A DNA stretch of 64,000 nucleotides, from assembly GCF_900112895.1 (NCBI RefSeq), contig NZ_FONL01000010.1, positions 1 to 64,000 on the forward strand. Direction: 5' to 3'. The translations under genes and the position numbers were made by a program. The notes under the pieces are model-generated. The model ran no database searches and was not told the DNA's origin. It saw only the letters and a program-made list of their open reading frames with translations. Numbering within the stretch: position 1 is the stretch's first letter; every line of letters starts with the position of its first letter. Positions 1,412-34,225 of the stretch are shown piece after piece. The DNA is from Succiniclasticum ruminis DSM 9236. Its GTDB lineage: Bacteria > Bacillota > Negativicutes > Acidaminococcales > Acidaminococcaceae.

Positions 1412-4400
1412 ATGAAACACATATCGAAACGAAGAGAATACTATACCGCGCTGTCCCGCAAGATTGCGGTGGGGCTGGCCTCCGGCCTGCTCTTTGTGGG
1501 GATTGGACAGTACCCGTCCATCGCGCTGGCTCATCCTGATTCCTCCACCACCGGCACATACAGCGCTACCGGAGACGTATCTGGCGGGATGTATACCGTA
1601 AATCCAGGGCTGCCTGTCACCACCGAGGCCGCCGGCGGCGCCGCTGTCAATCCGGACAAAATGGCGGTTTCTGTCACCAACAGTACCCTGACGGTGAACG
1701 GTGTACTGAATAACAGCGGCTACGGCGGCTATTCCCACCGCGACGCTCTTGCTGCTGCGGCGGCCGCGCAGAACAGCCTCGTATTGAACGGCACCATCCA
1801 GGTTACCGCCGACGACGATAATCTGTACGGTGCTTTCGGCGGCTTTGCCTATGCCGGACTGACGAATGCTCCTGTCGGTAGCAACGGCGTGCTTCGTGCA
1901 GAAGCGTCAGGCAATACCGTCACGGGTACGGGTGCAGACTCTACATTCCGTTTCGTCACCGATTTCAGCAAGGTGACCATCCCGGAAGTTACTGAGTACA
2001 GCCCGGGAACCATTTCCCCAGAAGCCGGCCTGGAACTTAAATCGGCTCTTATGGGCGGTTACGCCGCGACTTCGGTGATGAGCACCGAGGGCGCAGCGGG
2101 GAAACGGAATGCGCAGTCCGTTCGTGCGTCGGCCATAGCCGATAACAATACGGTAACGTTTTCCACGCTGAACCTGCAGCCGGTAGTTGAGGTCACGGGG
2201 CAGGACGGCTCTCAGGGGCAGGCTATTGAGTACCGCAGTATGGTGACGGCGGGCGGTGGCCAGGCTATGGCCCTGAATAACGCCAGGGGCAGTTATGTGG
2301 ACCACAGCGATACAAACATTGCCTCCGCCGATGGTAATACATTCACCGTCGGCACGCTGAATCTGGAAGAAACTGTCCAATCTGTTAGTGCCGAGCTGGA
2401 GCAGACCACCACGCTGAGCGGCGGCGACGCGCTGGCCCGATATCAGTCTCCCTCTTCCATGGAGAAGCTGAAAAGCGAAGATCCCCAGAAGAATGGTAAG
2501 GTGAGCATAATCACCGAGAGTTACCAGAATACTACATACAGCAATATCATCAATACGGCTACCGCAGACAACAATACGGAAACGCTGGACGCTATCATTC
2601 TTGGTGGCAAACTCAATACTGACGACCAAGGCCAGGCAGCTACTGACATTGAGGCCGAGGGAGAGTTGGAAGTAAGGGCCGGTCATGCGGAAGCTATTGT
2701 CTTCCTGAATGACAAGGACTCGAAGCTGGACGGTCTTGATAATAGCGCCCAGGCCAATGGCAACACCCTGACCGTCAGGAAGGTGGAACAGAATATCGAG
2801 CAGAGTACCAAGCAGGATGAACAAGGAACTGTCGTCCAGGCCTCCACTGTGACCATGATGCTGCATGGCGGCAATGCCCGGACAGAGATGACGCAAAATG
2901 GTACGAGCAACGTAAATTGGAAGAATGTCAGGAGCTCCGCTGCGGCGAACAGCAACACGATCACGCTGGAAGACATCAGTTCCAACGTGACGGAAAGCTC
3001 CCTGACCGGTGGCGCGGCTACTTCGGATATCTTGCTCATGGAGGGCAAGGGCGCCATGGAGGCGACTGTCGCTTCCAACACGGCCTCGGCTTCCGGAAAC
3101 ACGGCACAGATGGGCCTCTACGCGCCGGTGAATATGGGATTGGGCTGCGTCGTCAGCGGTGGTGTGGCTGACGTCTCCGTAGCGGCTCAAAACAATTTCA
3201 ACAACAATGCCGACACGGACAACGGATTGACGATGACCGTGGAAAACATGAATGCCGATGCCAGCCACAATACTATCAAAGTGGTGGGGAATGTCGACAG
3301 CAGTGGTAACAACCAGTCTGCTGCTACGACTATCACCGCTAACGGCGGCTCGGCCACGGCAGGTCTGAGTTTCGTCGGCGCCACGACGAATACATACATA
3401 AGCCGGGATACGGCTTCCTGGCAAAACGGCGCGATTACAGCCAATAACAACAATGTGGATCTGACCACCGCATATACCTATACAGCGGCTGGATCGGGCG
3501 CCCTGCCAAAGGCTGCCCTTCCCACCTTTACAGCGATGGGCGGCAATGCCAGCGGCAGCCTGGGCAATATGAATACCAACGCCAATGTGACGTTGGGAAA
3601 TCTGCGCCTGGAGAGTACTGGCAACGCAATCACCATCAATAATAGCATAAACATTACCGGCGCGCCGAAGGGCCAACTGGATACGAGCTATACACTGACC
3701 GGCGGCGCGGCCTCTTTCGGAATCAACAATACAGCGCCGGTGCTGACGGATCCGGCGGATTCGAAGAAAACGCTGCCAGTTACTCCCCAACCCTTCAATA
3801 TCGACAGCGCTGCGCTCACCATCACCGCCAGCAGCAATACCATCAATGTAACGGAGACCATCACGGGCACGGCGGGTTCGGCATCTGGGGAGACGGCTGG
3901 TTCTACAACCGTGGATACCATCGAAGGCGGCAATGCATCCTTCACCTATTTGGACGACGTAAGCGCCAAATCCACGGTCAGCCTCATACCCACTATTGAG
4001 GTTACCGGTAATACGGCTACGGTCACAAGCACGGATACCAGCAATGGCGACGTCGCGTCCATCGAAGGGAGCACCTACTCCGGCGGTACGGCAGCTTCCA
4101 GCATCACCAGCGGCAAGGCTCCGGTATCAGGCGAAACGGCAGTCACCTATACGACAGACAACACAATAAAGTATGCCCCAACGATGACCGTCAGCGGCAA
4201 CACACTGACCCTCTCCAGTACCTTTGACGCCTCCGCCAGTACGGCCGGAGACGGGACTACGGTCGGCGTCATCAGCGGCGGCAAGGCGAACCTCGATATC
4301 GTCAATTATGGAAATAACACCACGTTTGATGTCAGCCCACGGGCAGATGTGACGGGCAACACGGCCCAGGTCACCCTGAGCAACACGGCAGCGAGCAGCA

Positions 4401-6914: not shown

Positions 6915-8546
6915 TTATGAGGTCGTTTTTTTCCGGGATGCCGTTCTTGTGCGGGATTTGACCAGATCACCCAGCGGAACCTCGATTTCCATGCCATCCC
7001 GGAAGATAACCGTCACCCTCTCCTCATCATTCACGACCATATGGTCCAGAAGGTTGCACCAGAGACGTTCGTCAAATTCGGTGACGGCATCTCCGAGATG
7101 GTCGATGGTAGCTTTGACGGATTCGAAATACAACCTCTTTGTTTGTCGTTTCTCTAACTCAATCTTGCATTCCTCATATTTCTTTAACGCATCATCATAC
7201 TCGTCCTCCAAGACTTTCCGCTTGGCTTCATATTCTGCCTTTTGCTCTGGGGAATATATCAGCGCGCCTTCAAGCCGTACTTCCTGCAAGGCCTTACGCT
7301 TATCATCATACTTATTCATCTTGGCTTCCAGTTCCTTAACGGCGAACAGTTCTTCATTGATGGCCATCAGGTTATCGGCCAACTCGTTTTTCCCACGCAG
7401 CCGTTCGTTCAGCGCGGTCAGGAAGAATCTCTGGAGCTCCTCCTTCGTGAACCATCCGGTCTCGCAGTATGTCTTTTTGTGGTATTTGTTACGGCACCGG
7501 AAGATTACTTTTCTGTATTTGTCATTGGAATGCCAGGTTGCCTCTGCAAACCAGTCACCGCAGCATCCGCACTTCACCTTGCAGGAATATGCGTCCTTCC
7601 CACGCCACATAAGCTTTGATCCTTTACGTTTCTGGCGTTCCGCCTGCACTGCGTCGAACATCTCCTTACTGACGATGGCCGGGTGGCTGTTTTCAATATA
7701 ATACTTGGGCAGTTCGCCTTTGTTCACCTTCTGCTTCTTCGTCAGGAAGTCCGGCACATACCGTTTCTGCAGAAGCGCGGAGCCCTTGTATTTCTCGTTG
7801 GTCAGGATGCTGCGAACCGTTCCGGTATGCCAGCGGGGACCGCCTGCCGGACTCTTCACCCCCATCCCTTCCAACCTGTGGCATATCTGGGCGAAGGTCA
7901 GCCCATCCAGATACCATTGGTAAATCAACCGGACAGTCTCCGCCTGCTCCTCGTTGATGACCGGCTTGTAGTCAGGCCCGGGGTCATAACCCAGAAAAAT
8001 CTTGTAAGGCATGTTGAACTTCCCCTCGGCCATGCGTTTCCGCCTGCCCCACTTGGTGTTCTCGGATATGGACCGGCTCTCTTCCTGGGCCAAGGAGGAC
8101 ATAATGGTGATGAGGAGTTCCCCCGAGGCGTCCAATGTTTTGATGCCCTCTTTCTCAAACTCCACCTCGACGCCTTTTTCTTTCAGCTTGCGAATCGTTG
8201 TCAGGCAGTCCACCGTGTTCCGAGCGAACCGGCTGATGGATTTTGTGAGGATCAGGTCGATTTTGCCGTCCATGGCATCGGCTATCATCTGCTTGAATCC
8301 CTCACGGTGCGCTGTGCTTGTACCACTGATGCCCTCGTCGGAATAAACCCCCACGAATTCCCAGTCCGGATTCCCTTTGATGTGTTCCGTATAATACTTT
8401 ACCTGCATCTCATAGCTGGTCTGCTGTTCCTCCAAATCCGTGGAGACACGCGCATACGCCGCCACCTTCCTGGCGATTTTCTTTCCGTCCGCTGTCGCCG
8501 TGAAAGGATTTATCGTCGCCGGTATCGTTTGCACAACAGGATTCAT
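6915..8546 (-). CDS. Large serine recombinase (site-specific, phage integration)
   Basis: This 543-aa enzyme has the resolvase/invertase catalytic domain (about 25-175) with the nucleophile motif AYARVSTD. A Recombinase domain follows (about 190-300), then a zinc-ribbon region with CGCC and later Cys residues (about 320-370), and a long coiled coil (about 395-480). This is the architecture of the large serine integrases that mediate phage or ICE integration. Its start overlaps the stop of the preceding recombinase by 4 nt (ATGA), behind a GGAAGGAGG Shine-Dalgarno, so the two are translationally coupled. Which of the pair integrates and which assists is not evident. Confidence 0.92.
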   Translation of the reverse strand: MNPVVQTIPATINPFTATADGKKIARKVAAYARVSTDLEEQQTSYEMQVKYYTEHIKGNPDWEFVGVYSDEGISGTSTAHREGFKQMIADAMDGKIDLILTKSISRFARNTVDCLTTIRKLKEKGVEVEFEKEGIKTLDASGELLITIMSSLAQEESRSISENTKWGRRKRMAEGKFNMPYKIFLGYDPGPDYKPVINEEQAETVRLIYQWYLDGLTFAQICHRLEGMGVKSPAGGPRWHTGTVRSILTNEKYKGSALLQKRYVPDFLTKKQKVNKGELPKYYIENSHPAIVSKEMFDAVQAERQKRKGSKLMWRGKDAYSCKVKCGCCGDWFAEATWHSNDKYRKVIFRCRNKYHKKTYCETGWFTKEELQRFFLTALNERLRGKNELADNLMAINEELFAVKELEAKMNKYDDKRKALQEVRLEGALIYSPEQKAEYEAKRKVLEDEYDDALKKYEECKIELEKRQTKRLYFESVKATIDHLGDAVTEFDERLWCNLLDHMVVNDEERVTVIFRDGMEIEVPLGDLVKSRTRTASRKKTTS

Positions 8547-9841
8547 GCGCCGAACCTCCTTCCCTTATATTGCCTGCTTCTTTCCGCCCTGCGTTCCGGT
8601 GTCCACCAATCCTTTCGGCAGACCGGTTCCCAGGTTTCATCTATTATCGTCCCATCCTTCATATGGAACACCAGCCGGTGCTGCTCCGGAATGACTATCT
8701 TCTCAACCTTAACCGTAAACACCGCCTCATCAAATTCTTCCAGTCCCAGCACCCTGCAGCAGACCGCCTTCAGCTTCCTTTCCGGCAGGTACTTACTGGG
8801 ACATTTCCCTCCCTTCCTCCGGGTGCTGCATATCCAGTCGACATAACCGTCCTTGCTGAACCGGCTGTACCACTTGCCACAGCTGCCGCATTGAATCTTA
8901 TGGGTGAAGCAGGTCATGCCCTTCCGTAACATGAAGCCCATCTTCGTCCGGTACGCCAGAACCTCCTGTACTTTATCGTAGGTTTCCCGGTCAACAATCC
9001 CGGCATGATGGTGTTTGACATAATACCGATCCCTCTGGCCGATATTATTGATAACCTTCTTGCTGATGCAATCTCTTACAAACACTTTCTGAAGAAGCAG
9101 GTCGCCGGCATAAAGGGGGTTGGAAAGAATCCGGCGGACCGTGACAGTGCTGAACTGTTTCCCACGCACCGTCAGCCGGCCCTCTTCCCGCAACCGTTTT
9201 GCAATGGCATAAACGGATTCCCCACGAAGAAGGCCTGCATACATTTGACGTATCACCTCTGCCTCTTCCGGCTCAATGACATACTGTCTGTCAACCCAGC
9301 GGTATCCGTATACGAACGTGCCGCCGCTGGTTTCACCGCGCTGATATTTTCTCCGGATGGCCCACTTGACATTATTCGAAATGGACACGCTCTCCTGCTC
9401 GGCAACGGCGGCGGTGACGGTCAGCAGGAACTCACCGCCCATTCCCGAAGTGTTGATATTTTCCTTTTCGAACCGTACCTCAATGCCGAGCCCTTTCAGT
9501 TCCCGGACGCTGTTGAGCAGGTCAACCGTGTTCCGTGCGAACCGGCTGATGGATTTCGTAAGGATGATATCGATCTTCTTTGCCCGGCAGTCTTCCATCA
9601 TCTGCAGGAACTGCTTCCGATGTTTTAAACTCGTCCCGGAAATCCCGTTGTCGGTGTAGATTCCTGCCAACTCCCATTCCGGGTTGTTCATAATGAGTTT
9701 TTCAAAATGAGCTGCCTGGGCCTCATAGCTGGATTCCTGGTCTTTCTTATCGGTAGATACCCTGGCATAGGCAGCCACCTTCTTTTTCTGTATTTGTGCC
9801 TCCAGCGGCTTGGTGGCTGGGATTATTTCAGCCCCGTTCAT
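8543..9841 (-). CDS. Second large serine recombinase
   Basis: This recombinase (about 432 aa from the chosen start) has the same catalytic signature AYARVSTDK, a Recombinase domain, and a zinc-ribbon segment with CGSCGKWY and a later CSTRRKGGKC. It is shorter than its neighbour because the long coiled coil is missing. The start at 9841 is preferred because a GGGAGGTGA Shine-Dalgarno lies just upstream; a longer reading frame reaches back to 9889. Tandem serine recombinases with a small upstream ORF are a recurring integration cassette in Firmicute prophages and conjugative elements. The two may act as a heteromeric pair. Confidence 0.9.
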   Translation of the reverse strand: MNGAEIIPATKPLEAQIQKKKVAAYARVSTDKKDQESSYEAQAAHFEKLIMNNPEWELAGIYTDNGISGTSLKHRKQFLQMMEDCRAKKIDIILTKSISRFARNTVDLLNSVRELKGLGIEVRFEKENINTSGMGGEFLLTVTAAVAEQESVSISNNVKWAIRRKYQRGETSGGTFVYGYRWVDRQYVIEPEEAEVIRQMYAGLLRGESVYAIAKRLREEGRLTVRGKQFSTVTVRRILSNPLYAGDLLLQKVFVRDCISKKVINNIGQRDRYYVKHHHAGIVDRETYDKVQEVLAYRTKMGFMLRKGMTCFTHKIQCGSCGKWYSRFSKDGYVDWICSTRRKGGKCPSKYLPERKLKAVCCRVLGLEEFDEAVFTVKVEKIVIPEQHRLVFHMKDGTIIDETWEPVCRKDWWTPERRAERSRQYKGRRFGA

Positions 9842-9885
9842 GATTTCACCTCCCATGGTATCTATCACTCTGAAGCCGCATATAG

Positions 9886-10035
9886 TCAAGTCATTACCGG
9901 AGTATACTTCTCGCGCATCAGCCTGTCCGCCGCATCGTACTCCTCCTGGGTGATGACGCCTTCTTTCAGCGATTTCCTGACTATGGCCATGGTGACGCTG
10001 TACATCATCTGGCTGTGAAAGGTCTCACGTTCCAT
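9886..10035 (-). CDS. Small SHOCT-like protein upstream of the recombinases
   Basis: The 49-aa product starts MERETFHSQM behind an AAGGAGGAC Shine-Dalgarno. Its C-terminus (VITQEEYDAADRLMREKY) resembles a SHOCT-type short helical module. It is the first gene of the three-gene integration operon. Small proteins in this position are common beside tandem serine recombinases and may assist directionality or oligomerisation, but that role is inference. The call as a real gene rests on the ribosome site and context. Confidence 0.6.
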   Translation of the reverse strand: MERETFHSQMMYSVTMAIVRKSLKEGVITQEEYDAADRLMREKYTPVMT

Positions 10036-10192
10036 ATGTCCGTCCTCCTTCAGAAAAATACCCCTCACTTAATAGCCGGGAAACAGGCCAAAAGTTAAGG
10101 TTATGTCGGAAATAATTCCGTTCTGTATTCCTATGCCCACATACAGCCAGTTTTTTTAGTGCCAGCCCATATTTTTTTGAGGAGTCCCAAAA

Positions 10193-10223
10193 TAAAAAAA
10201 TCCCGCAGGCATTCCCGCGGGAT
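10193..10223 (-). terminator. Terminator of the lysis operon
   Basis: ATCCCGC (10200-10206) pairs with GCGGGAT (10217-10223). Read on the minus strand the hairpin is followed by seven T residues. It lies 16 nt past the stop of the last lysis ORF. Confidence 0.8.
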
Positions 10224-10238
10224 GTGTAGTACAGAATA

Positions 10239-10670
10239 TTATGTTTTCCTTACCGCAAAATATACAGCGGCAGCAGCTATCACATATGCAATATTGCGCT
10301 GCCACCTACTGTGCCGGAGCCTTGACCGTTCCTCGGCTTCGTACTGCTGCAATAATCTGTTGGCATTCTGCAATGACTGCTCCTGCCCTTCCAGCGTCAG
10401 CTTCAATGCGCCCAGCTGCGCCTTGAGCATCTGTGACTGCTTTCCGGCTTCCGTCAATTGCGTCAGCGACGCCTCCAGTTGTTTTCTCAATGTCGCGGAC
10501 TCTGTCCTCTGCCTGTCGTTGATATTCCTCAACTCGGTCAAGTTCCTGTCTAACCTCTCCAGCTCCGTTTCCGTGATCTGGTACAGTTGCTCTGCCGAAC
10601 ATAAAGCCGGAATAAAAGATAAGCAGGCAACCAATAATGTGCAACACAATACCCTTACAATCCTGAACAT
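10239..10670 (-). CDS. Spanin-like protein: N-terminal lipoprotein-type signal, coiled coil, C-terminal TM
   Basis: The 143-aa product begins with a hydrophobic signal (about 1-25). Its LVAC (residues 13-16) fits a lipobox, and a normal signal-peptidase-I site near CSA is an alternative. A long amphipathic coiled coil (about 30-115) and a C-terminal membrane segment NIAYVIAAAAVYFAV follow. A lipidated N-terminus plus an inner-membrane C-terminus is the plan of unimolecular spanins, which fuse inner and outer membranes at lysis. It overlaps out of frame almost all of the ORF starting at 10674; the two start codons are 4 nt apart and share one Shine-Dalgarno. No homology is recognised; the role is inferred from topology and position after the endolysin. 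Confidence 0.6.
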   Translation of the reverse strand: MFRIVRVLCCTLLVACLSFIPALCSAEQLYQITETELERLDRNLTELRNINDRQRTESATLRKQLEASLTQLTEAGKQSQMLKAQLGALKLTLEGQEQSLQNANRLLQQYEAEERSRLRHSRWQRNIAYVIAAAAVYFAVRKT

Positions 10671-10674
10671 TCAT
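10306..10674 (-). CDS. i-spanin-like protein: N-terminal TM plus coiled coil, overlapping frame
   Basis: This 122-aa ORF has a short N-terminus, one membrane segment (about 8-27, HIIGCLLIFYSGFMFG) and a hydrophilic helical region predicted as coiled coil (about 38-105). That is the topology of Rz-type inner-membrane spanins. A GGGAGGG Shine-Dalgarno lies 7 nt before the ATG, the best spacing of the two overlapping starts. It lies just after the endolysin stop. The overlap with the 10670-10239 frame recalls Rz/Rz1 but is nearly complete. Either both frames are used or one is fortuitous; both read as plausible membrane proteins. Confidence 0.6.
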   Translation of the reverse strand: MNVQDCKGIVLHIIGCLLIFYSGFMFGRATVPDHGNGAGEVRQELDRVEEYQRQAEDRVRDIEKTTGGVADAIDGSRKAVTDAQGAAGRIEADAGRAGAVIAECQQIIAAVRSRGTVKAPAQ

Positions 10675-10688
10675 TTCACCGCCCTCCC

Positions 10689-11279
10689 TCACTCAAGCAA
10701 CCAATTGCCGTCGAACCACCGGTTTCCGACCTTCAGCCTGTCGGTGAACTGCCACATCTTGGCACCGGGCCAGTCACAGGAATGCGCCCATTGCGCGCAC
10801 CAGATGGGAGCGTACTCCGGCAGCAGGTTCGTGTAGATGCGGTTCTCCAACCAGTCCAGACTTGCGTAGAGACCGCTGTTATATCCGTGGCGGTTGCATT
10901 CGGTGATGAACTCGTTGCACATGGCGGTGATGGTCTGTGCCGATGGCATTCCATTGCGCTCCTTGTATCCGTCACCGTCTTCCATATCAAACCACACGCC
11001 CATCTCCAGCCGGCCCGGTGTCAGGCCGCTGGATTCCAGGATATGCATCATGTAAGATGCCTCCTCCCAGGCGCCCACCCTGTTCAGCGCATAACTGTAA
11101 TAGTAGACGCCAATCTTCAGCCCCGCCTCCAGCGCCTCATTGACATTCTTGTAGAACAGGGTATCCAGATGCCCGCGCCCGTAACCAAGCCGGATGATGG
11201 CAAACTCTATCCCGTTCTCCTTCACGGCCTTCCAGTCGATCCAGCCGTTGTTTTCCGATACATCAATTCCTTTTATCAT
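10689..11279 (-). CDS. GH25 endolysin (lysozyme-type muramidase)
   Basis: This 196-aa enzyme matches glycoside hydrolase family 25 along its whole length: N-terminal KGIDVSENNGWIDW, central VGVYYYS-like strand, and the acidic catalytic motif VWFDMEDGD at about 94-102. It would cut the glycan backbone of peptidoglycan at lysis. There is no signal peptide and no separate cell-wall-binding domain, so release through the holin is expected. It overlaps the holin stop by 1 nt, and the spanin-like ORFs follow directly. Confidence 0.92.
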   Translation of the reverse strand: MIKGIDVSENNGWIDWKAVKENGIEFAIIRLGYGRGHLDTLFYKNVNEALEAGLKIGVYYYSYALNRVGAWEEASYMMHILESSGLTPGRLEMGVWFDMEDGDGYKERNGMPSAQTITAMCNEFITECNRHGYNSGLYASLDWLENRIYTNLLPEYAPIWCAQWAHSCDWPGAKMWQFTDRLKVGNRWFDGNWLLE

Positions 11280-11779
11280 TATTTTCCCCTCCGTTGTAAT
11301 AACTCATACAGCCGGGCCATGCTCTTCACCCCGGCATCTCCCAGGTTCTCGATGATGGACAGCGCCTCGTTCATAGCAAGGTAGCCGCAAACAATCTGGA
11401 CGATCTGGGACGAACCCCCAGCGGCCATGCTCATCAGATCAAAGATGGCAGCCATCAGGAAGCAGATACAGTAAACGAACAGCTTGCTGACACCGCGTGT
11501 GCGCATCTCCGTGCTGTTTATCTTCCGTGCCTTCCGGGCGCTGTTGATGCCCTTCACGGCATCAAAAAAAGCAGGGGCCTCATTCCCCTGCTCCACCAGG
11601 TATGCGTAACTGATCGCTATCCATTTTGTCAGAATGTCCAGGTACAGCAGTACCCCGAACCCGATCATAAGGATGGAATATTTGTGCGTCACCAGACCCA
11701 GCACCGCTCCGGCAATCACCTTGATGTTTAGCATATCCCCCATCTTATCCAACACAGCGTGGACGATTTCCTTATCCAT
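11279..11779 (-). CDS. Phage holin (holin family 4-like)
   Basis: The 166-aa protein has several hydrophobic segments (about 18-36, 38-58, 100-122 and 125-145) separated by a Lys/Arg-rich loop, and resembles the toxin-secretion/phage-lysis holin family common in Firmicute prophages. It would form the inner-membrane lesion that releases the endolysin. It is tightly packed between the radical SAM gene (1-nt gap) and the endolysin gene (1-nt overlap), so all are co-transcribed. Confidence 0.85.
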   Translation of the reverse strand: MDKEIVHAVLDKMGDMLNIKVIAGAVLGLVTHKYSILMIGFGVLLYLDILTKWIAISYAYLVEQGNEAPAFFDAVKGINSARKARKINSTEMRTRGVSKLFVYCICFLMAAIFDLMSMAAGGSSQIVQIVCGYLAMNEALSIIENLGDAGVKSMARLYELLQRRGK

Positions 11780-11780
11780 A

Positions 11781-12911
11781 CTATCCTTCTCCTTTCCGGG
11801 CTTCTGCCCTTAAATCCCTGTATTCCGGTATCTCGCACTCCGTCAGTTTCTTCCGGTTCCGTAAGACGGATCCGTAAATCCGGCGGAGAACTTCACAATG
11901 CACATATTCCGTCCCATCTTCCGTAAACAGCCCTATCGGGCAGCGGTTCCTGCAGATGGATACCACAGGACAGCTGAAGCATTTCCGTGGTATCAGATCT
12001 TCCCACACCATTCGGTGCTTCTCCAACATCTCCTCGCAGGAATCATCAATAGAGGAAATGACCCTGCTGTCGTTATGGCACCGGACGATGCTCCCGTCGA
12101 ATTTGAATGACAGTGATATAACCCCGGGCGCACAGGGCGGAAACGGGGATGTTGTAAAATGTTCCCGCCTGAACAGGTCATCGCTGATAAACTTTTCCAC
12201 GAAAAAGTTGTACCGGTTCCCATACGGGTCGTTTCCTGCGATGATGTCGTCCGCCAGGGCATCAATCGCCCGTTCTATCTGCCCTTCCCGGAAGGTATAG
12301 ATGTCTTTTGGGATATCGGACAGCACATTGATAAGCCCCATATCCACGATGGTCTCCGGAAACAGTTCTTCGAGCATGGCAAACGCCCTGACCGGATCAT
12401 CGTTCAGGGCGTTGAACACAAAATTCACGGAACGCTTCTTGCATTCCAACAAGGCCTCAATGTTTTCTTTTGATGGGACTGCGTTCCGTACCGCCACCGG
12501 ATTTGGCGCATCGTAGGACATCGTGAACAGTACCCTGTGCCTGTTGCAGAAATCTGCAATCTCCTTTGTCAGAAGCAGCCCGTTCGAAAAGATTCGGTAC
12601 TGGCGTGGAAATATACCACGGGACTCAAACATCAATATGTATCGCTTAATCGTCTCCCAATACAAGAGCGGCTCCCCGCCCCAGAAGTAAATCCGGGAAA
12701 AGAAGCCGTTTTTCACAGACAGCCATTTCTTCAGGAACAGTATCACCTTCTCCGGCAGTTCGGAATCCGGCTGCTGGCAGAACGTGTTTTTTATGGGCGT
12801 CTGGGAACAGTGCCGGCATGTCATATTGCAGGCAGGGCCTAACAACAAAAAGACCGCAGACAAACCGTGCAGATATTCTGTTTCCCCAGTCCAAGGTTTA
12901 TTCACCGCCAC
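11781..12911 (-). CDS. Radical SAM/SPASM enzyme in the phage late operon
   Basis: From the chosen GTG the product is about 376 aa. It has the radical SAM cluster motif CNMTCRHC (Cys 28, 32, 35), a GGEP motif (78-81), and a complete SPASM domain: Cys 260, G-x4-C ending at 278, C-x2-C-x5-C-x3-C (311-324) and Cys 339. SPASM enzymes usually modify peptides (sactipeptide, GRRM or anSME type). The GTG at 12911 has a perfect GGAGGTGA Shine-Dalgarno 5 nt upstream, lying inside the 3' end of the adhesin gene, which it overlaps by 14 nt. Further in-frame starts upstream (ATG at 12959, 12956 and 12950) lack such a site. A peptide-modifying enzyme between tail and holin genes is unusual. The substrate is unknown; the upstream adhesin is the obvious candidate. 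Confidence 0.9.
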   Translation of the reverse strand: MAVNKPWTGETEYLHGLSAVFLLLGPACNMTCRHCSQTPIKNTFCQQPDSELPEKVILFLKKWLSVKNGFFSRIYFWGGEPLLYWETIKRYILMFESRGIFPRQYRIFSNGLLLTKEIADFCNRHRVLFTMSYDAPNPVAVRNAVPSKENIEALLECKKRSVNFVFNALNDDPVRAFAMLEELFPETIVDMGLINVLSDIPKDIYTFREGQIERAIDALADDIIAGNDPYGNRYNFFVEKFISDDLFRREHFTTSPFPPCAPGVISLSFKFDGSIVRCHNDSRVISSIDDSCEEMLEKHRMVWEDLIPRKCFSCPVVSICRNRCPIGLFTEDGTEYVHCEVLRRIYGSVLRNRKKLTECEIPEYRDLRAEARKGEG

Positions 12912-14223
12912 TGCCTTCACCTCCGGAACCTTCACCGCTTGAGCCTTCATACTCATCATAATACCCGACAATCTTGAATGTGGTATTGGCCGTCAATGCG
13001 CCTGAAGTCCAAGACTCTTTACTATGGATAGCCGTTTTATATGTGCTTCCCTGCGTGATTTTCAAATAGTATCTGTAACTGTTCTTGGTATCCGTAATCT
13101 TTATTGTGGTGTTGTACTTGATGGTCACGGAAGACGGCTTGGTCGCTGTTGCAGAAGAACCGGATGTGTTGGTATATGTAATGGTCGCTGTCGGTGTCCA
13201 CCCGTCAGCCGTCCATGTGAACGTAATCTTCGGTGTGATAGCCGTAGCCGCCGTTGCGCTGACAGTCGTGGCTGCAGTCACCGTTCCGCTGGAGCCGGAC
13301 AATGTACCCTTTGTATATCCCGTCGCAGCCGCCAGGCTTGCTGTCCAGGTCGTGCCGTATCCGACAGTAAAACTCTGTGCCGAAGAGGTAGACGTCTTCG
13401 TAACTTCCGAAGCAAACGTGCCGTCGGACTTTTTGTTTTTGTACTTCAGCGTTATGGTCTGATGGGAAGTGGCATTCAGTTTCAGCGTAAACGTCTTGTA
13501 TGTGGCAGAACCTGCAGATACCGTTGTAGCCGCTGTCACGGTACCGGAAGACCCGGGGGTTAACGCGCCTGCCGTCCACCCCGTCGCGCCGGCTATCGTA
13601 GCCGTCCATGTGGTCCCATGCCGGACTGTAAAGGACTGTGCGGAAGATGTGGAAGTCTTTGTGACCTCTGCCTCAAATCCGGTGTTGGCGGCGTTCCGGT
13701 TCTTGTATTTCAGCGTGATGGTCTGGTGGGTTGTCGCATTCAGTTTCAGCGTGTAGGTCTTCAGGCTTGCTGCACCTGCGGTAACTGTCACGTTTGCATT
13801 AGTCAGCGTACCACTGCTGCTGGGTGTCAATGAACCGGCGTTATACCCGGTAGCCCCAGCCACCGTTGCCGTCCAGGTAGTACCGTAAGGAAAATACTTG
13901 TTGCCGCTCGTCCAGGACGCCCCACCCGCCGTGACCGTGATTGTCTCGTTGGAAACAGCAGTAATGCCAAGCCGGATGAGGGATTTTGTCGCCAGCACAT
14001 ATTCCGTTCCGCCTTTTTCTATATGAACCGGGGTCCCGTAATCGTCATAAAACACTTGGGAATAGGTTGTCGGATATAAAGCAGCATACAGGTTCGTTCC
14101 ATCTACGGTCACCGGCAGATATGCAGAATTGTATACTTTCGCTTCCGCCGTGGTCGTATACAAATCACAGGTGTATGTGGTGCTTCCCTTTGTGACTTTC
14201 AGGGTGTGTGATGATTTGCTCAT
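12898..14223 (-). CDS. Repeat-rich phage tail adhesin with Gly-Ser-Glu tail
   Basis: The 441-aa protein has an N-terminal part (1-90) carrying VYNSAYLPVTVDG, then two closely similar units of about 85 residues and partial flanking copies (about 90-335). They share the motifs YKNxN/K, TSTSSAQSFTV and GTTWTA. These are beta-rich, Thr/Ser-rich and InlB-like. A further beta domain (about 335-420) precedes the C-terminal tail GSSGEGSGGEGSGGE, three tandem pentapeptides. Position after the tail tip and fibre genes indicates a receptor-binding or decoration protein. The tail codons also contain the Shine-Dalgarno of the downstream radical SAM gene. I do not recognise a named family. Confidence 0.75.
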   Translation of the reverse strand: MSKSSHTLKVTKGSTTYTCDLYTTTAEAKVYNSAYLPVTVDGTNLYAALYPTTYSQVFYDDYGTPVHIEKGGTEYVLATKSLIRLGITAVSNETITVTAGGASWTSGNKYFPYGTTWTATVAGATGYNAGSLTPSSSGTLTNANVTVTAGAASLKTYTLKLNATTHQTITLKYKNRNAANTGFEAEVTKTSTSSAQSFTVRHGTTWTATIAGATGWTAGALTPGSSGTVTAATTVSAGSATYKTFTLKLNATSHQTITLKYKNKKSDGTFASEVTKTSTSSAQSFTVGYGTTWTASLAAATGYTKGTLSGSSGTVTAATTVSATAATAITPKITFTWTADGWTPTATITYTNTSGSSATATKPSSVTIKYNTTIKITDTKNSYRYYLKITQGSTYKTAIHSKESWTSGALTANTTFKIVGYYDEYEGSSGEGSGGEGSGGE

Positions 14224-14234
14224 AATCCATCACC

Positions 14235-15158
14235 TCAGACAATCCATATCTTGCTCCCGTCGGGGAACTGAATTTTGCCGTCCGTTGTAAAAACAAAACT
14301 TTTACGGTTCGCAATCGTTCCGGCGTTTGTATGAATGTAGACCGTGCTGTCTGCCGTCAAGTGCAGATTTTCCGTATCGCCATTTAAGGTAATTGCTGAC
14401 ACCAGGCTCTTCGGGGATTCACCGGCGCCTATCACAACCGCACCACTGCTCTGGATGCCGAATCCGGTCCCATTGTTCGTGGTGGAGCTTGAAGGGAACA
14501 CAAAAAACGGGTTCGTCGTATGCACCGTTGCGTCTGCATCCGTTGCCTTTAACTGATACCGGAACGGAAGATTGATGCCGGTTCCCTGTGTACTCGCTGT
14601 CCCGCTCACATTTAATGTGAAGTTGGATGCCGTCGTTACCGCACCGCTGAATGTACCGCCGGCCAGGGGCATATAGGTGCTCCCGGTCACTGCGATGGTA
14701 ACCTTGTCGTTGGTTGCATCCGGTGTCAGCGTAATCGCATTGCCGGCTGCAAACGTAAGCGTGTCCTGTTTCGCATCTGCCTGAATGGTCGTACTCCCCA
14801 CCGTGACATTAGCAAAGGTGTTCTGGTTCACCTCCGCCCCTGTCGCAATACCATTCAGCTTCGTCTTATCCGTGTTGCTCATGAATCCGTTGCTGCTGGT
14901 GGTCGCGGCATCATGTACATGCCCGTCGATGGAAAAATATGTGGAGTCATGCCCATCCAGCTTATCTGCGTTCAGGTTAACGCACTTTGTCCCATTGGAT
15001 TTCGGTATGTTGCCGCTGGCATTTCCCGGTGACAGACCGCACAGCTTCAGGGCATTCACGATTTGGTCCTCGATGACCGCGCGTAGCTGTTCCCGCTGTT
15101 TCGCAGGAAACTCCGACAAATACTCGTCATCTGCCGGAAATGTGGAATCGTATGCCAT
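14235..15158 (-). CDS. Phage tail fibre protein
   Basis: This 307-aa protein begins with a short helical part (about 1-40), then shows the tail-fibre motif ADKLDGHDSTYFSIDGHVHD (about 64-83). Repeats rich in Asn, Thr and Gly follow, including NTDKTKLNGIATGAEVNQ and LAGGTFSGAV, typical of trimeric side or tail fibres. It would form part of the host-recognition device with the adhesin encoded 11 nt downstream. A terminator sits between it and the tail tip gene, so the adhesin-lysis group may have its own promoter or rely on read-through. Confidence 0.8.
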   Translation of the reverse strand: MAYDSTFPADDEYLSEFPAKQREQLRAVIEDQIVNALKLCGLSPGNASGNIPKSNGTKCVNLNADKLDGHDSTYFSIDGHVHDAATTSSNGFMSNTDKTKLNGIATGAEVNQNTFANVTVGSTTIQADAKQDTLTFAAGNAITLTPDATNDKVTIAVTGSTYMPLAGGTFSGAVTTASNFTLNVSGTASTQGTGINLPFRYQLKATDADATVHTTNPFFVFPSSSTTNNGTGFGIQSSGAVVIGAGESPKSLVSAITLNGDTENLHLTADSTVYIHTNAGTIANRKSFVFTTDGKIQFPDGSKIWIV

Positions 15159-15173
15159 TGTTATCCCTCCAAA

Positions 15174-15202
15174 TAAAAAAGGGACGCCATAAAACGCCCC
15201 TT
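15174..15202 (-). terminator. Terminator after the tail tip gene
   Basis: On the minus strand AAGGGGCG pairs with CGTCCCTT, followed by TTTTTATTT. The stem overlaps the stop codon of the tail tip gene ending at 15201. Confidence 0.75.
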
Positions 15203-18200
15203 AATACCCCTTTATTTTTATGTCTACCGTTCCCGCCACTGCGGTATTGCTTGTGTTGAACACCTTGATAACGCACTCGGTCTTCGTCCTGCTTATCACC
15301 CTGGCGTGAACCGTTTCACCGATGGCATTGGCCGTCACATTTGGGACGGCATAGAAAGTATGCCCGTACGGAACGGTAGTGCCAGCCGCCGCTATCGAAG
15401 CAGTGATGGCGATATCCGTGTCCGGCACATCGATGCTGATGAGCAGGTGGTTGACCTCCGGTGTCTTATTGGTATTTTTCGTAGCCAGTTTCACCCGGAA
15501 CTGAACGTACCTAAAACGCCGCTGCACCGGTTTGAACTCCGTCCAGTCCATCCAAATGCTGTTGTCAAGGGATGTACGGAACTCCAAAACCGCAGACACA
15601 TCCCCCGCATACATAACAGTCGAAACAAAGTACACGGAAATCTTCGCGGTAATGATGCTTCCGACATTGATCTTTGCCAGCGTGTAGGTGCCGCTTGCCG
15701 GATACTTCCCGGTCGAAGTGTTCAGTTTCAGTTTCAGTACCTGTGACCCGCCCAGGTCGGCAAACTTGGTCGTGGTATAGTCACTGAACCGGCCTCCCAC
15801 AGTCTGGAAGTTGATACTTGATTCGCCGAACTCCGTGTTGCTGTGCGTACCGCTCTGCCGGGCAAGTTCGTCAAAGGTCTGAATGACGTTCTTCGGCGGC
15901 AGGTTCTCCACGTTGACCCGCGAGGTCCGTGCGGCAGAACTTTTGAAACCGGCCTTGTTGATGGCCACGATATGGTACTGATAAAGCCTTTCAATATCCA
16001 CCGGGACGGTAAAGAAGTTGTTCGTCACCCCGGTCGCCACCAAGGCGCCGGTATCAAAACTGGAACCTTCCCGTATCTCGTACCCGGTCACATCGATGTC
16101 CGTGCTGACCGTCCAGTACAGTTCAACCATCTCGCCGTCCTGGTACGCCACAAAATTCGTGCAGTTCGTGGGTTCCACCGTACACCGCAGGCTGGCCGAC
16201 GTCTCATCCGAATAGAACCCCGCGCTGTTCAGCGTCCGGATCATGACATGGACGCTCTCCGTCTCTGTCAGGGTGTAGGTCGCATACAGTTCGTTGGTCA
16301 GCGGGATCTCCTCGGCGCTGTCCCAGTTATCCCCGACCTTCACCTGGTAACCCACAAGGTCACCGTCCGGGACGGCGTTCCATTGAATGTTCAGCTGGCT
16401 TCTATCCTTCGGGTTCTGCCGCAGCTGGATGACAGATACGGGCGTGGGCTCAAGGCCGAAGATGGCAGACACCTCCGCCGGGTACTGTGACTCGTTGCCC
16501 GCAATCGTCACCGCCTTAATCATCCACGAATACTGATGTTCCTCTTCAATCATCACTTCAAAAGTCGTACCGCTGACGCGCGGGGCGACCATACTCGCCG
16601 TGTTCCAGCTTGTGCCCTGCTTGATGATATAATAAGCAACATCGGTCTGGTTCACCGCATCCCAGGACAGCAGTACCGTGGTCTTGTTCACCGTGCTTTG
16701 CGCCGCCCGGAAATTGGTAACGTCCATCGGTTCTATCGTGATGGTAATGCTCGTGTTGGTTACGGCGGATTCAAACCCCGCCACCGTGACAGCCTTGACC
16801 ATGACATTGTATGTACCGGAGGCCGGCACCTGCCACTCAAAACGATTATCCTTGATATCCACTATCTCCGTCCCATTCGCCCAGGTATTGCCATACCGTA
16901 TCGAATAGTGGTCGATATCCTTGCCGGGGGAACGGGTGAACTTGATGACAGCCTTGCTCCGGTCCTTGGTACTCTGGGTTACCGTCAGATCCGTCACGGC
17001 ATCCGGTATCAGGTTCACTACCTTGGTCAGTCCCGTTGGGGCCTGTGAATAGACGTCAGCATTATTGATGGCGGAAATCCAGAATTTATAGGTTCCGCTC
17101 GATGCTACCTGGTAGGTGGTCTTCCGGGTCTTGGTCCTTGCGAACTGTGTGCCTGCCGCCCACGAGTTTCCCGCCCGCAGTTCATACTGGGAAAGGTCAC
17201 TGTCCGTTACGGCATCCCAGGTGAATTCCAGTACGCTCCGGTCCGTGGTCTGCTGTGTGACCGCAAAGCCTGTCACGTTCGACGGATACGGATAGATGGG
17301 AATCTGGCAGCTTGCCCCAGCTGACTGGTTGCCTGCATTGTCTACGGCAAACACCGTCACCGTGGGATTTGCTGTATTGGATACAATCGTGATGATATTG
17401 CTTGCCGTGGTATAGGTCTTGCCACCGGCAACAGAAACTTTATAGTTGCGGAAGTCGATGTCCGTATTCTCGTTCCAGGTCACCTCCGCCTTGGTACGGT
17501 CTGCCGGGTCAACCTTGTATGACAATCCCGTCACGGCCTTTGGCGGGACGTCCTGTCCGCAGGAAATAAGGCCGGTGGTAACACCCGTGCTTTGGGATAC
17601 CCCAAGAATCGTGACCACCTTGACATAGTAATCTGTCTTTGCCTTTACATTGAATTCGGCAAACGTGTTGGATGTCTCCGTAGCGTTGGTCCATTTTTTC
17701 TTGTCCGTAGAAATAAGTACCGTGTACCTGCCTCCGCCGCTGGCGCGTTTCCAGGAAACGCTCATCATGCCGTGCCGGACGCGGTTCTCGTCGGTATACT
17801 GGAACTGCTTTGCTGACAGCCCGGTAACATTTTTCGCATTCCCCACAGCCTTTGTTGCATACTGGATGGGCGGTATCTCGTAGTTCTCCTCGAACAGGGC
17901 CTCCGCATACTCGATGCAGGTGATCCTCCGCGTGAAGTCCTGCGCACGGGTAATCGATTTCACAACGAACGGCTTTGAACCGATGTTGGCAATAGCCAAA
18001 TCGAAAACATCCCCTGCCTGGGGCGGGTCGCTCTCTGAATAGTCCGATTCCAGACCGATGGTAGTCCACCCATTTGAACTCGTCTCGATGATGGTACACG
18101 GAATCGTGTACAGGTTGTCCTTTACCGTCCTGAACTGGATGCGGTAGCTTTTGGTCGTATCACTGATATAAACCGGCAGGACCATGGTCAGGTCATCCAC

Positions 18201-20456
18201 GCTTTCGATGCGTCCGCTGTTCGCCCACTTCGGTACGTCGTGCGACACAAGGATGACGTCCCCCACCGTACAGGCGATGGCATCGATACCGGCCTCGAAC
18301 GATACCGTCCGGAGCTGGTAGCGGTTACACATAAGATGATACTTGCCTTCCCGGTATGCCTGCTTATAGTCTGTTATGCCGTCCATGGTCAACTGGGCAG
18401 TCTTGGCATACCCGTCGCTGTCAAACGTGCTTCCGTAGATGGTCAGCACATCCCTTTGGTAATCAGCGTCGGCGTTGGTGAACGTGACCTCCACGCAGTT
18501 CGCCCGGTCGGCCACCTTCAGGAACTCCTCACTGAAAGAACCGGCGAGGATGTTGCCCATGTTGAACATCTGCACCGGTTGCTGCACATGGTCATAGATA
18601 CAGCCGTAGCGTGTCCCGAACCGCACCACCATGCCGCGCCCGATCGGCGCTATCCGCTGGTTGATGACCTCCAGCACCTCACCGCTGGTATTGATTTCAA
18701 TATTGACCGTCAGATCCTTTTCATTGCACCAGTTCGCCCAGGCAGCAAAATCCGAATAGCGGATGCGGTCTGCCGGAGCGCCCCGCACCTCATATTCCCA
18801 GTTCCCGGTGTTGATGTTCTTCAGCCGCCTTGCCTGATGCAACAGGTCGTAAGAGGCCCATGCCGGGTTGTCAGCCCGTTTCTTGACATAACTGCTCCCG
18901 TTCCACACATACACATAGGTGCGTTCCTTGAGGAACGACAGTGACGGGCTCCCGTTCAGCTGGTCGGTCGCCACCGCAGAGATGCCCAGAAGCGCTGTGC
19001 AAGGATAGGTAAAATCATCGTAGATAATGGAAGTGATGGCTGTAAGGTAGCAGGTAGAAGACGCCTGCGTATTCGTTTCCGCATACTGCCGGTAGGAAAC
19101 CTTTACACGCACTTCATATTCTCCGCTGGGAATATGGTTGACCGTGAACTGTTTCCGAAGGGCAGAATTCCGGGCAGCCGTGATAATACCGTTGCCGCTG
19201 CCGTTGCTTACGGTCAGAGTCGCCGTCTTATCGTTGCCGTTCTTAACGCTGCTGACCAGGCTGTCACTCCATTTGTCCGTGTCAACACGGAACGCCCCCA
19301 CGGTCACTACTTTGGAACCGATATCCTTTTTCCGTATCGTGCCGGAATAGGAACCTATGCTGATCCTAACGTTATAAAACCAGCTGCGGTACCCGTCCTC
19401 ATCGTCATCCCACAGGCATTGTATCTTCATAGTATATGAACCGGCGGCCACATTCTTCGCCAGCGTCACTCCATAGCTGTTGCTGGCCAGTTCCTTGAAC
19501 AGGTTAGTCCATGCGCCATAGGTAACATTGTCGTTTGCATCCGTGGTAACTTTCCGGTATTCGATGTCCAAGTTCACTGTAGCATTTTCCACTTTACCGC
19601 TGTCCGAAATGTGGCATAAGCCGTTCGGGAATTCTATCTCAAACCGCAATCCCCTTGTGTCTGTCCCGTTTGCCGTGTCAGTCACCCAGGTATTGTCCAG
19701 CTTGTAAGAAACATTCTTGGTAAAATATGTGTTGTTGAAATTGGTGATGACGCTCTGGTCATTCGTTCCCTTGCGAAGTTCAAAGTCCGCGTCATCAAAA
19801 TTCTCGATATCATTATCGTTCAGCTTGATGTCCGTGATGACAAGTTCCCCTTCCCCACAGGCCACAAGCCAGTTCAGGCATTCATCGTTGTCGTCGATAT
19901 CGACAAACTTGGCGATGGTCTGTCCGCCGCTTTTCACCTTGCCGTAGGTCAGGGCAATCGGGTTGTTCTGGCCTTCCATGGTCTGGACGCCAGCCCAGGA
20001 ATATGTAGCCTTGCTGTTCTCGGATTCATACCCGCCCAGGTCTGTCTTCTGACCGGAAAGCCTGCCGATAAGGGCAGAACCCAAAAACATGACAGCCGTA
20101 GCGGCTGCGTATGCACCCCAGGCACCTGCAGCAAACGCCTTGCCTAATCCGGCAAGCCAGCCACCGCTGGCGATGCCGAAGGACACCACGGACAGGGCGA
20201 TGGCTGCCACGATGCCGAGGATGGACTTGCCACCCTTTCCGCCTTTTTCGATGACCGGATATATCACCACGAAATCTTCATCCTTGATAACTGTGTTTTC
20301 ATCCACACTGTACCCGTTCACCGTGGCCTGCAGGTCAACGCCCTCTATTCTGTTTTCTGCCAGCAAATCCGCCAACGTGCCGCCAGCTTCGATATGCCGG
20401 ATTTCCCTTCCGTCCTGCGGCGAGAAAGGATTTTTAACGAGTACCAGAGTTACCAT
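15201..20456 (-). CDS. Tail tip attachment protein J (host specificity)
   Basis: At about 1750 residues this is the largest phage gene. It has an N-terminal ubiquitin-like part (FSPQDGREIRHIEAGGTL), a hydrophobic Gly/Ala-rich segment (about 80-130), and a lambda-J/TipJ core. A string of fibronectin type III domains follows, with recurring LSWDAV-, VTW- and KAVT-type motifs in the central and C-terminal half. J-type proteins form the tip of siphovirus tails and determine host range. The ATG at 20456 is preferred for its AGGTGATG Shine-Dalgarno; an alternative start reaches 20489. It overlaps the NlpC/P60 gene, as in lambda K-J. Confidence 0.9.
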   Translation of the reverse strand: MVTLVLVKNPFSPQDGREIRHIEAGGTLADLLAENRIEGVDLQATVNGYSVDENTVIKDEDFVVIYPVIEKGGKGGKSILGIVAAIALSVVSFGIASGGWLAGLGKAFAAGAWGAYAAATAVMFLGSALIGRLSGQKTDLGGYESENSKATYSWAGVQTMEGQNNPIALTYGKVKSGGQTIAKFVDIDDNDECLNWLVACGEGELVITDIKLNDNDIENFDDADFELRKGTNDQSVITNFNNTYFTKNVSYKLDNTWVTDTANGTDTRGLRFEIEFPNGLCHISDSGKVENATVNLDIEYRKVTTDANDNVTYGAWTNLFKELASNSYGVTLAKNVAAGSYTMKIQCLWDDDEDGYRSWFYNVRISIGSYSGTIRKKDIGSKVVTVGAFRVDTDKWSDSLVSSVKNGNDKTATLTVSNGSGNGIITAARNSALRKQFTVNHIPSGEYEVRVKVSYRQYAETNTQASSTCYLTAITSIIYDDFTYPCTALLGISAVATDQLNGSPSLSFLKERTYVYVWNGSSYVKKRADNPAWASYDLLHQARRLKNINTGNWEYEVRGAPADRIRYSDFAAWANWCNEKDLTVNIEINTSGEVLEVINQRIAPIGRGMVVRFGTRYGCIYDHVQQPVQMFNMGNILAGSFSEEFLKVADRANCVEVTFTNADADYQRDVLTIYGSTFDSDGYAKTAQLTMDGITDYKQAYREGKYHLMCNRYQLRTVSFEAGIDAIACTVGDVILVSHDVPKWANSGRIESVDDLTMVLPVYISDTTKSYRIQFRTVKDNLYTIPCTIIETSSNGWTTIGLESDYSESDPPQAGDVFDLAIANIGSKPFVVKSITRAQDFTRRITCIEYAEALFEENYEIPPIQYATKAVGNAKNVTGLSAKQFQYTDENRVRHGMMSVSWKRASGGGRYTVLISTDKKKWTNATETSNTFAEFNVKAKTDYYVKVVTILGVSQSTGVTTGLISCGQDVPPKAVTGLSYKVDPADRTKAEVTWNENTDIDFRNYKVSVAGGKTYTTASNIITIVSNTANPTVTVFAVDNAGNQSAGASCQIPIYPYPSNVTGFAVTQQTTDRSVLEFTWDAVTDSDLSQYELRAGNSWAAGTQFARTKTRKTTYQVASSGTYKFWISAINNADVYSQAPTGLTKVVNLIPDAVTDLTVTQSTKDRSKAVIKFTRSPGKDIDHYSIRYGNTWANGTEIVDIKDNRFEWQVPASGTYNVMVKAVTVAGFESAVTNTSITITIEPMDVTNFRAAQSTVNKTTVLLSWDAVNQTDVAYYIIKQGTSWNTASMVAPRVSGTTFEVMIEEEHQYSWMIKAVTIAGNESQYPAEVSAIFGLEPTPVSVIQLRQNPKDRSQLNIQWNAVPDGDLVGYQVKVGDNWDSAEEIPLTNELYATYTLTETESVHVMIRTLNSAGFYSDETSASLRCTVEPTNCTNFVAYQDGEMVELYWTVSTDIDVTGYEIREGSSFDTGALVATGVTNNFFTVPVDIERLYQYHIVAINKAGFKSSAARTSRVNVENLPPKNVIQTFDELARQSGTHSNTEFGESSINFQTVGGRFSDYTTTKFADLGGSQVLKLKLNTSTGKYPASGTYTLAKINVGSIITAKISVYFVSTVMYAGDVSAVLEFRTSLDNSIWMDWTEFKPVQRRFRYVQFRVKLATKNTNKTPEVNHLLISIDVPDTDIAITASIAAAGTTVPYGHTFYAVPNVTANAIGETVHARVISRTKTECVIKVFNTSNTAVAGTVDIKIKGY

Positions 20457-20859
20457 GTGCATCACCTGTATATTGATAAAACCCGACAATCACCCTGCGC
20501 CAGGCCGGGGATGATATCCTGTCTATGCAGACACCTATCCGTTCCCTTGCGTGGATGAACATCCCCCCGCCGATATAGACAGCCGTATGGTTGACGACCC
20601 CGTCCGGGCTGCCGAACCGGATGGCTACCAGGCAGGGCGCTGCCGGTTCCTTGATTTCTTTCCACGGATAGCCCCGGGTATTTCCTGTTATGAGTTGGTC
20701 TATCTTTTCCATATCTTTGTAATCCGCATCGTATTCCGGCACGTCGTATCCGTAGCGCCGGTACACTTCCCGGACGACGCCGTAGCAGTCCAGCCCTTGT
20801 TTTACATCCCGTCCGTGGTTGGCAAAGGGTGTCCCGATAAGGTCCGTAAAATCCATCAT
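20434..20859 (-). CDS. NlpC/P60 tail-tip peptidase (lambda K-like)
   Basis: The product, about 141 aa from the start at 20859, has the NlpC/P60 Cys in GLDCYGVVREVYRRYG and the His in VVNHTAVYIGGGMF. Such tail proteins cut the peptide stem of peptidoglycan during DNA entry or act in tail assembly. Unlike lambda K there is no separate N-terminal Mov34/JAMM domain. The start is chosen on an AAAGGGG site and the ATGA overlap with the upstream L-type gene. Confidence 0.88.
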   Translation of the reverse strand: MMDFTDLIGTPFANHGRDVKQGLDCYGVVREVYRRYGYDVPEYDADYKDMEKIDQLITGNTRGYPWKEIKEPAAPCLVAIRFGSPDGVVNHTAVYIGGGMFIHARERIGVCIDRISSPAWRRVIVGFYQYTGDAHGNSGTR

Positions 20860-34192: not shown

Positions 34193-34225
34193 CTCTGTGA
34201 ACCTCCTTCTTTTTAGGTTACTGTA

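Follow-up and report, generated by a model that had tools for sequence, protein, structure and literature searches.

The window, which comprises the whole analysed stretch of 64,000 nucleotides from Succiniclasticum ruminis DSM 9236, carries late phage genes including those for a lambda-type J, minor tail protein L, terminase, a holin and a GH25 lysin. On the minus strand, the late operon was found to run in the order J, 307-aa fibre, 441-aa adhesin, radical SAM gene, holin and GH25 lysin. The lambda-type central tail tip protein J (TipJ; 15201..20489, minus strand) was matched by phrog_31 (E=1.7e-164) and by NF040662 at 169.5 bits against a cut-off of 140, and the 307-aa tail fibre located upstream of the adhesin (14235..15158, minus strand) was matched by phrog_7389, a tail fiber family (E=2.6e-14). 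The adhesin or fibre-tip protein (12898..14223, minus strand), a beta-rich protein of 441 aa and the substrate proposed in this study, was matched by no Pfam family above its cut-off. The holin (11279..11779, minus strand, start ATG 11779) scored 48.6 bits with Pfam Phage_holin_4_1, and the GH25 endolysin (10689..11279, minus strand) matched Pfam Glyco_hydro_25 (E=6.4e-31). The radical SAM/SPASM gene itself (11781..12911, minus strand) overlaps the adhesin gene by 14 nt (12898-12911) and is separated from the holin gene by 1 nt, as the first-pass annotation had described. Its assignment of the gene to late phage DNA was likewise borne out by the terminase, J, L, holin and lysin genes around it, and by the IMG/VR phages L002-L004, which keep the enzyme gene at 94-95% identity with the same holin adjoining and, in L002-L003, with the same adhesin beside it.

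The minus-strand frame of the enzyme was revealed by ORF analysis to be open over 11781-12971 when counted from the first TTG. The best start was GTG 12911, which has a GGAGG 8 nt upstream within the last codons of the adhesin and leaves 27 residues ahead of the first core Cys, compared with 25 in the nearest relative, L233; the coordinates originally assigned to the gene were thus right, and the product has 376 aa. In this numbering, the core CX3CX2C motif corresponds to C28, C32 and C35, and GGEP to residues 78-81. The SPASM motif, CX9-15GX4C - CX2CX5CX3C - C, is present in full as C260-X12-G273-X4-C278, C311-X2-C314-X5-C320-X3-C324 and C339. All ten Cys residues (three core and seven SPASM) and GGEP were invariant in an alignment of 26 sequences (A5). 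The maturase motifs noticed on first reading were confirmed without exception.

Profile searches placed the enzyme in the radical SAM superfamily (Pfam Radical_SAM, E=5.7e-11, 43.3 bits against a cut-off of 29.5), and it scored 26.1 bits with the NCBIfam SPASM model TIGR04085, 0.9 bits short of the cut-off of 27, which was passed by its relatives L233 (36.2 bits), L009, L012 and L018. It also matched phrog_1802 (E=9.9e-27), a family of radical SAM domain-containing proteins in the category other, as did the relatives L223 (1.9e-36) and L012 (7.6e-65). Among the matches listed, no NCBIfam equivalog came near its cut-off for the window enzyme or for six relatives. An AlphaFold2 model (pLDDT 80.2, pTM 0.81) superposed over nearly its whole length on CteB, ChlB and anSMEcpe (Z 21.6-22.4, rmsd about 4). 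The gene is present as a single copy in the host assembly, where three other radical SAM matches were weak (E 4e-7 to 9e-4). The window gene is an intact radical SAM enzyme with a complete SPASM motif and, since its dN/dS was 0.08-0.18 relative to L002-L004 of IMG/VR, is under purifying selection.

Viperin models also matched the enzyme (NCBIfam, 42.6 bits; PADLOC pVip, 44.2 bits), which would suit a phage-borne viperin-like gene, or another anti-phage or moron gene, with no connection to the tail. The NCBIfam match, however, covered the radical SAM core only (residues 25-138) and fell far below the 180-bit cut-off of its model, NF038283, and the enzyme has a full SPASM domain. Moreover, the gene lies between adhesin and holin, and its relatives lie beside tail fibres. 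We therefore regard such a role as very improbable.

The adhesin contains a single Cys (residue 19), and its C-terminal tail, YYDEYEGSSGEGSGGEGSGGE, is of a Glu/Ser/Gly type without Cys; the codons of this tail and the stop (12898..12963, minus strand) also supply the enzyme's Shine-Dalgarno sequence GGAGG. The structural model of the adhesin was good for residues 80-330 only, with a C-terminus of pLDDT under 50. Its weak matches to pilus adhesins (PitA, Z 9.3, rmsd 10.3; TIE, Z 8.7, rmsd 6.2) hint only at beta-rich Ig-like repeats in the modelled protein.

The adhesin shares its N-terminal domain with a protein of L346 and its C-terminal domain with a protein of L233. The enzyme of L233, a 6.7-kb contig with a G+C content of 26%, shares 55% identity with that of the window, and the gene just upstream encodes a 593-aa protein that is 35% identical to the adhesin over 443 columns and ends in YYESSSEASQGEGSFSEGEGGGF; the identity over the C-terminal domain and tail was 48%. 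In L346, the enzyme is 36% identical, and a 171-aa protein ending in DDSCSVDSSGCGGEGG 5 nt before the enzyme resembled the N-terminal domain of the adhesin in a single comparison (E=3e-5). In three lineages, so far the only ones of the window type, the enzyme is therefore directly preceded by a tip protein that has an acidic Ser/Gly tail, and one of these tails, that of L346, contains two Cys. In both the window and L233, the last Gly codons of the tail double as the ribosome-binding site. From the sequence, this site could explain part of the likeness between the two Gly-rich tails, not all of which need then reflect selection on the protein.

No relative of the adhesin was found among 50,697 phage records, and its last 132 residues recurred in only one of 59 genomes of the host's family, namely its own, and in three IMG/VR loci, of which one is an identical copy. 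Scans for further members with A3, L233 and A7 returned only L002-L004, L346 and distant relatives, and the L346 enzyme gave zero matches at E<=1e-8 in the phage records. The C-terminal domain of the adhesin was also considered as a homologue of the accessory protein described below, and the idea was dropped at an hhalign probability of 0.2.

A tail without Cys, shared by the window, L002, L003 and L233, would fit an enzyme that has become an idle relic after its substrate lost the Cys residues. Against this stand the dN/dS values given above, the retention of all ten Cys residues, and the presence of the same gene pair in L233, which has 26% G+C, and we consider a relic improbable. The Cys-free tail would also suit an enzyme that modifies something other than the adhesin tail, either a host surface protein, a host surface peptide having been named as a possible target in the first-pass annotation, or a further phage protein, for instance J with its 18 Cys and, among them, six Cys-X3-Asp/Glu spacings. 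The enzyme gene, however, overlaps that of the adhesin, and both genes are found together again in L233 (55% identity for the enzyme and 35% for the adhesin), in whose 6.7 kb no match to J was found. L346 also keeps the order of tip protein and then enzyme, and no [N/D]-Cys tract was found elsewhere in the host assembly. A target other than the tail is accordingly unlikely in our judgement, although it is the foremost of the alternatives considered here.

The features of the wider enzyme family were examined from two directions. In the tail-seeded test, a DNA pattern for NCNCNCNC was searched in viral contigs and returned at least 120 loci, in 92 of which the tract was in frame and <=30 aa from the stop, and was thus counted as a Cys tail (62 distinct tails, the 92 loci including near copies). 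The enzyme was found in 75 of these 92 loci, as against 2 of the 28 others (Fisher p=7e-13, among the at least 120 loci), and all 75 enzymes lay on the strand of the tail, 9-5386 nt downstream. Sixteen of the 17 Cys-tail loci devoid of the enzyme have <3 kb of downstream sequence. The profile used (A1) was built from the enzymes of the window, JWF, L011 and L012, and the tail pattern had recovered none of these. An earlier count at a looser E-value, limited to the first 80 loci, had given 50/60 versus 2/20.

In the enzyme-seeded test, viral contigs were scanned with A1, and 80 of the 558 matches were taken, yielding 77 new loci. Among the 56 of these with >=4.5 kb upstream, a Cys tail was located upstream on the same strand in 33, compared with 1/56 on the opposite strand and 1/54 on the downstream side; the background of such tails was 4/2506 ORFs in genome loci (L262-L311) and 1/354 in the window. 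A looser earlier count had given 37 of the 77 loci, many of which lack upstream DNA. Of the 56 loci, 23 had no Cys tail: either the rule applied to them misses other tail types, such as internal tracts like that of JWF (e.g., L193), or some of the enzymes have a different target. A Cys tail was likewise not found in L234, L247, L248 and L253. As an observation apart, two Sutterellaceae loci (L235:4707-11357 and L234:304-4612) carry tandem arrays of three to four radical SAM genes, and no Cys tail was flagged there.

Both tests showed that the enzyme and C-terminal Cys tails are associated family-wide, the proteins bearing NC tails being tail-fibre-like where examined (L050, L229). The neighbours are not always adhesin and holin; the constant partner is instead an upstream protein with a peculiar C-terminal tail, usually cysteine-rich and within about 5 kb. 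An accessory protein, detected at 138 loci by an iterated HMM, was also present in 65 of the at least 120 NC loci, and near the enzyme in 57 of the 77 enzyme-bearing NC loci, always on the same strand (57/57). It is not present in the window.

Individual loci illustrated this arrangement. In the phage records, the enzyme was matched in only three entries, those of Achromobacter phages JWF and 2-1, at 22.6% identity. The JWF gene occupies a similar setting: J and two fibre genes are followed by a 240-aa gene, by the enzyme and then by a small gene and the endolysin. The 483-aa tail fibre gp28 of this phage (L009:5664-7115) contains NCNCDCNCNCSC followed directly by a self-cleaving Hint domain, and its Cys tract may, judging from this order, turn into a new C-terminus after Hint cleavage. 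In L012 of IMG/VR, the enzyme lies downstream of three small fibre-like proteins ending in NCNCNCACNC, NCNCNCNC and NCNCACNC. Beside the NC-tail proteins and the enzyme of the same contig, three small genes (4973-5563, 7309-7947 and 9280-10256) are 2OG-Fe(II) oxygenase-like; the one at 7309-7947, the only one of the three to be scored, gave 26.5 bits with the Pfam 2OG-Fe(II) oxygenase model against a cut-off of 27, and their products might hydroxylate the same tails.

The association was also seen in the host's own family, that of Acidaminococcus. A [N/D]C[N/D]C[N/D]C tract occurred in 8 of 59 genomes, with at least 31 sites among the matches listed, while the backward control pattern occurred in 6 of 59 genomes with 7 matches in the same search. 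All eight tract-bearing genomes carry the phage enzyme, that of G019 having been missed in the family search at E<=1e-12 and found in other family data. The window's genome, the ninth to carry the enzyme, lacks a tract, and the remaining 50 have neither (p=4e-9). In the eight genomes, the tracts lie at prophage tail loci, several of which have two enzymes. Five family prophages (L223, L225, L226, L229 and L230) carry a cassette flanked by the genes for tail fibre and lysin. It comprises two SPASM enzymes, small CQxC-repeat proteins with NCNC tails, a Hint-like protein (24.9 bits, below the Pfam cut-off of 28.4) and the accessory protein. Prophage L224 of the same family is related to the window in minor tail protein L (60.6%), the next protein (45.4%) and J (43.7% over 652 aa). 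It carries an enzyme in the same region, with a 275-aa protein ending in NCNCNCDCDCTCDCSGGE two genes upstream of it. A substrate acting in trans was also sought for the window enzyme and rejected: a pattern search found no [N/D]C repeat anywhere in the host assembly, and the one Cys-rich tail among the window ORFs, that of 33716-34216, is on the other strand, far off and repeat-free.

In a maximum-likelihood tree of 96 enzymes (midpoint root, long branches), 68 phage and prophage enzymes including that of the window fell on one side of a branch with SH-aLRT support of 98, and two further radical SAM proteins encoded by the host fell on the other side together with many non-phage ones. The window enzyme was sister to that of L233 (100) within a 21-row group composed mostly of Acidaminococcaceae prophage enzymes (85), though long branches and midpoint rooting leave its finer placement unsure. 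The tree carries Cys labels that are noisy and follow a looser rule than the enzyme-seeded count, and six Cys-labelled rows lie outside the phage clade. The nearest relatives are phage or prophage genes beside tail fibres, and the family-wide evidence speaks against the possibility raised at the outset, that homologues occur mostly in host RiPP clusters. Given its position in the phage clade and beside tail genes, the window enzyme is a member of a phage tail-linked SPASM group, and the tail of the nearby fibre protein being devoid of Cys, it represents a Cys-free variant of this group.

Taken together, gene order, coupling and recurrence single out the C-terminal tail of the fibre-tip protein as the likeliest substrate, and we consider it fairly probable that this phage-borne SPASM maturase works on the tail of the protein encoded just upstream. 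The substrate in the window, the bond formed and its use are what we infer here. The conjecture that the phage enzyme modifies its own adhesin or a host surface peptide was therefore supported in part: C-terminal Asn-Cys tails on fibre-like proteins do co-occur with the enzyme, and the part concerning the window itself is weakened, as tail Cys, the best-supported substrate feature of the family, is missing there.

SPASM enzymes are established to abstract a peptide hydrogen by means of a 5'-deoxyadenosyl radical, with auxiliary clusters accepting the electron. In the proposed scheme, the adhesin and the enzyme would be co-translated from the late operon, coupled by the 14-nt overlap evident in the DNA. 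In the anaerobic host cell, the enzyme would recognise the adhesin and bind its flexible C-terminal tail, as the recurring order of tail and then enzyme suggests. Judging from the motifs and fold, the 5'-deoxyadenosyl radical would then take a hydrogen from tail residues and the auxiliary clusters would take the electron. In relatives with NC tails, the product would most likely be one or more thioethers from Cys sulfur to a carbon of the neighbouring Asn, Asp or Ser, presumably giving a stiff, protease-proof fibre end. In the window lineage, Cys has been lost from the tail, and modification might instead fall on the side chain of Ser, Glu or Tyr, which is the weakest step of the scheme. The finished tip would be incorporated into the virion ahead of cell lysis by holin and lysin.

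The proposed thioether is based on the fact that PapB and CteB, thioether maturases of ranthipeptides and SCIFF, are nearest by profile and fold, and that PapB links Cys to Asp, and to Glu once Asp has been replaced, according to PMC8172795. PapB was the top NCBIfam match of the window enzyme among the matches listed, and CteB (5wgg), which has the same radical SAM and SPASM fold, was the best structural match (Z 22.4). The scores nevertheless remained far from the respective cut-offs (PapB NF047865, 44.9 of 340 bits; SCIFF, 27.9 of 425). In the NC tails of the relatives, Cys adjoins Asn or Asp, donors and acceptors like those of PapB (PMC8172795). The link pattern would differ from that of PapB, which requires Cys-X3-Asp, a spacing absent from alternating NC; the adhesin, unlike a PapB-type substrate, has no Cys-X3-Asp/Glu either. 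Furthermore, CteB and PapB act on small Cys-rich precursors, whereas the substrate proposed here is a virion protein of 441 aa whose tail lacks Cys. No convincing small stand-alone precursor peptide was found beside the maturase. One candidate, a 49-aa frame at 10156-10305 with seven Cys near its start (CICDSCCRCIFC), overlaps a conserved gene of the lysis region, is present again in L004 and was not seen in L002; this frame is probably spurious.

A large protein substrate is not foreign to the class. QhpD, the maturase of quinohemoprotein amine dehydrogenase, is a SPASM enzyme acting on a large ribosomal protein instead of a small precursor, as proposed for the window enzyme, according to PMC8172795. 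The window enzyme scored only 36.5 bits of the QhpD cut-off of 453, and QhpD differs further in modifying a host enzyme subunit.

Anaerobic sulfatase maturases oxidise two residues, Cys and Ser, and these are just what the NC tails and the window tail offer. Conversion of Cys in the former or Ser in the latter to formylglycine, the aldehydes of which would let the fibre bind amines of the host surface, was weighed against the cross-linking reading. anSMEcpe, which acts on a protein side chain, shares the fold (Z 21.6) and the seven-Cys SPASM layout and was among the best structural matches, tied with CteB, and one phage JWF record calls its homologue an anaerobic sulfatase-maturating enzyme. 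With TIGR03942, however, the score of 32.5 bits fell short of the cut-off of 349. Sulfatase maturases have Asp after the Gx4C cysteine, where the window enzyme has His; at Cys-tail loci, 111 of the 133 enzymes carry Gln (81) or His (30) at this position, and Asp is outside the six commonest residues, which makes a sulfatase-type oxidation less likely. In addition, the motif of sulfatase substrates, [CS]x[PA]xR, was found in none of the adhesin, fibre, holin, lysin and 128-aa protein, and occurs once in J. We hold formylglycine formation to be distinctly improbable, hardly differing in this from the idle relic.

The location of the enzyme's relatives just downstream of fibre proteins with cysteine-rich ends suggests that such phages chemically finish their own fibre tips. 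Somewhat more tentatively, at a little under even confidence, we propose that a phage system of dedicated radical SAM enzymes is widespread and converts C-terminal fibre tails into RiPP-like virion tips with covalent cross-links; NC repeats would be the standard substrate, and the window branch would have moved to a Cys-free Glu/Ser/Gly tail and hence to a different reaction. PHROGs assigns no function to phrog_1802, and the link to C-terminal fibre tails was made in this analysis. No earlier account of radical enzymes modifying phage fibre tips was found in the literature searched, preprints and most subscription journals being outside its scope. Phage fibre tips decide which cells get infected. 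If the proposal is true, the receptor-binding end of many phages would not be the peptide encoded by the gene, and the modified tips would be overlooked when fibre structures are predicted, or fibres engineered, from sequence. It would also extend RiPP-type chemistry to large virion proteins and give a role to the function-less phrog_1802.

Several further features of the window were observed. Just outside the phage, on the other strand, lies a gene for a 1668-aa protein (1412-6418), for which no Pfam family was found at E<=1e-4 and whose end, in our reading, resembles an outer-membrane autotransporter. At one phage edge, two large serine recombinases are encoded in tandem with overlapping ends (6915-9889). 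Downstream of the holin and lysin, two genes of 128 and 143 aa overlap in different frames (10239-10692), the second having a lipoprotein-like start; relatives of the pair are located near the lysin in prophages of the host's family, and we take its arrangement to be like that of Rz/Rz1 spanins.
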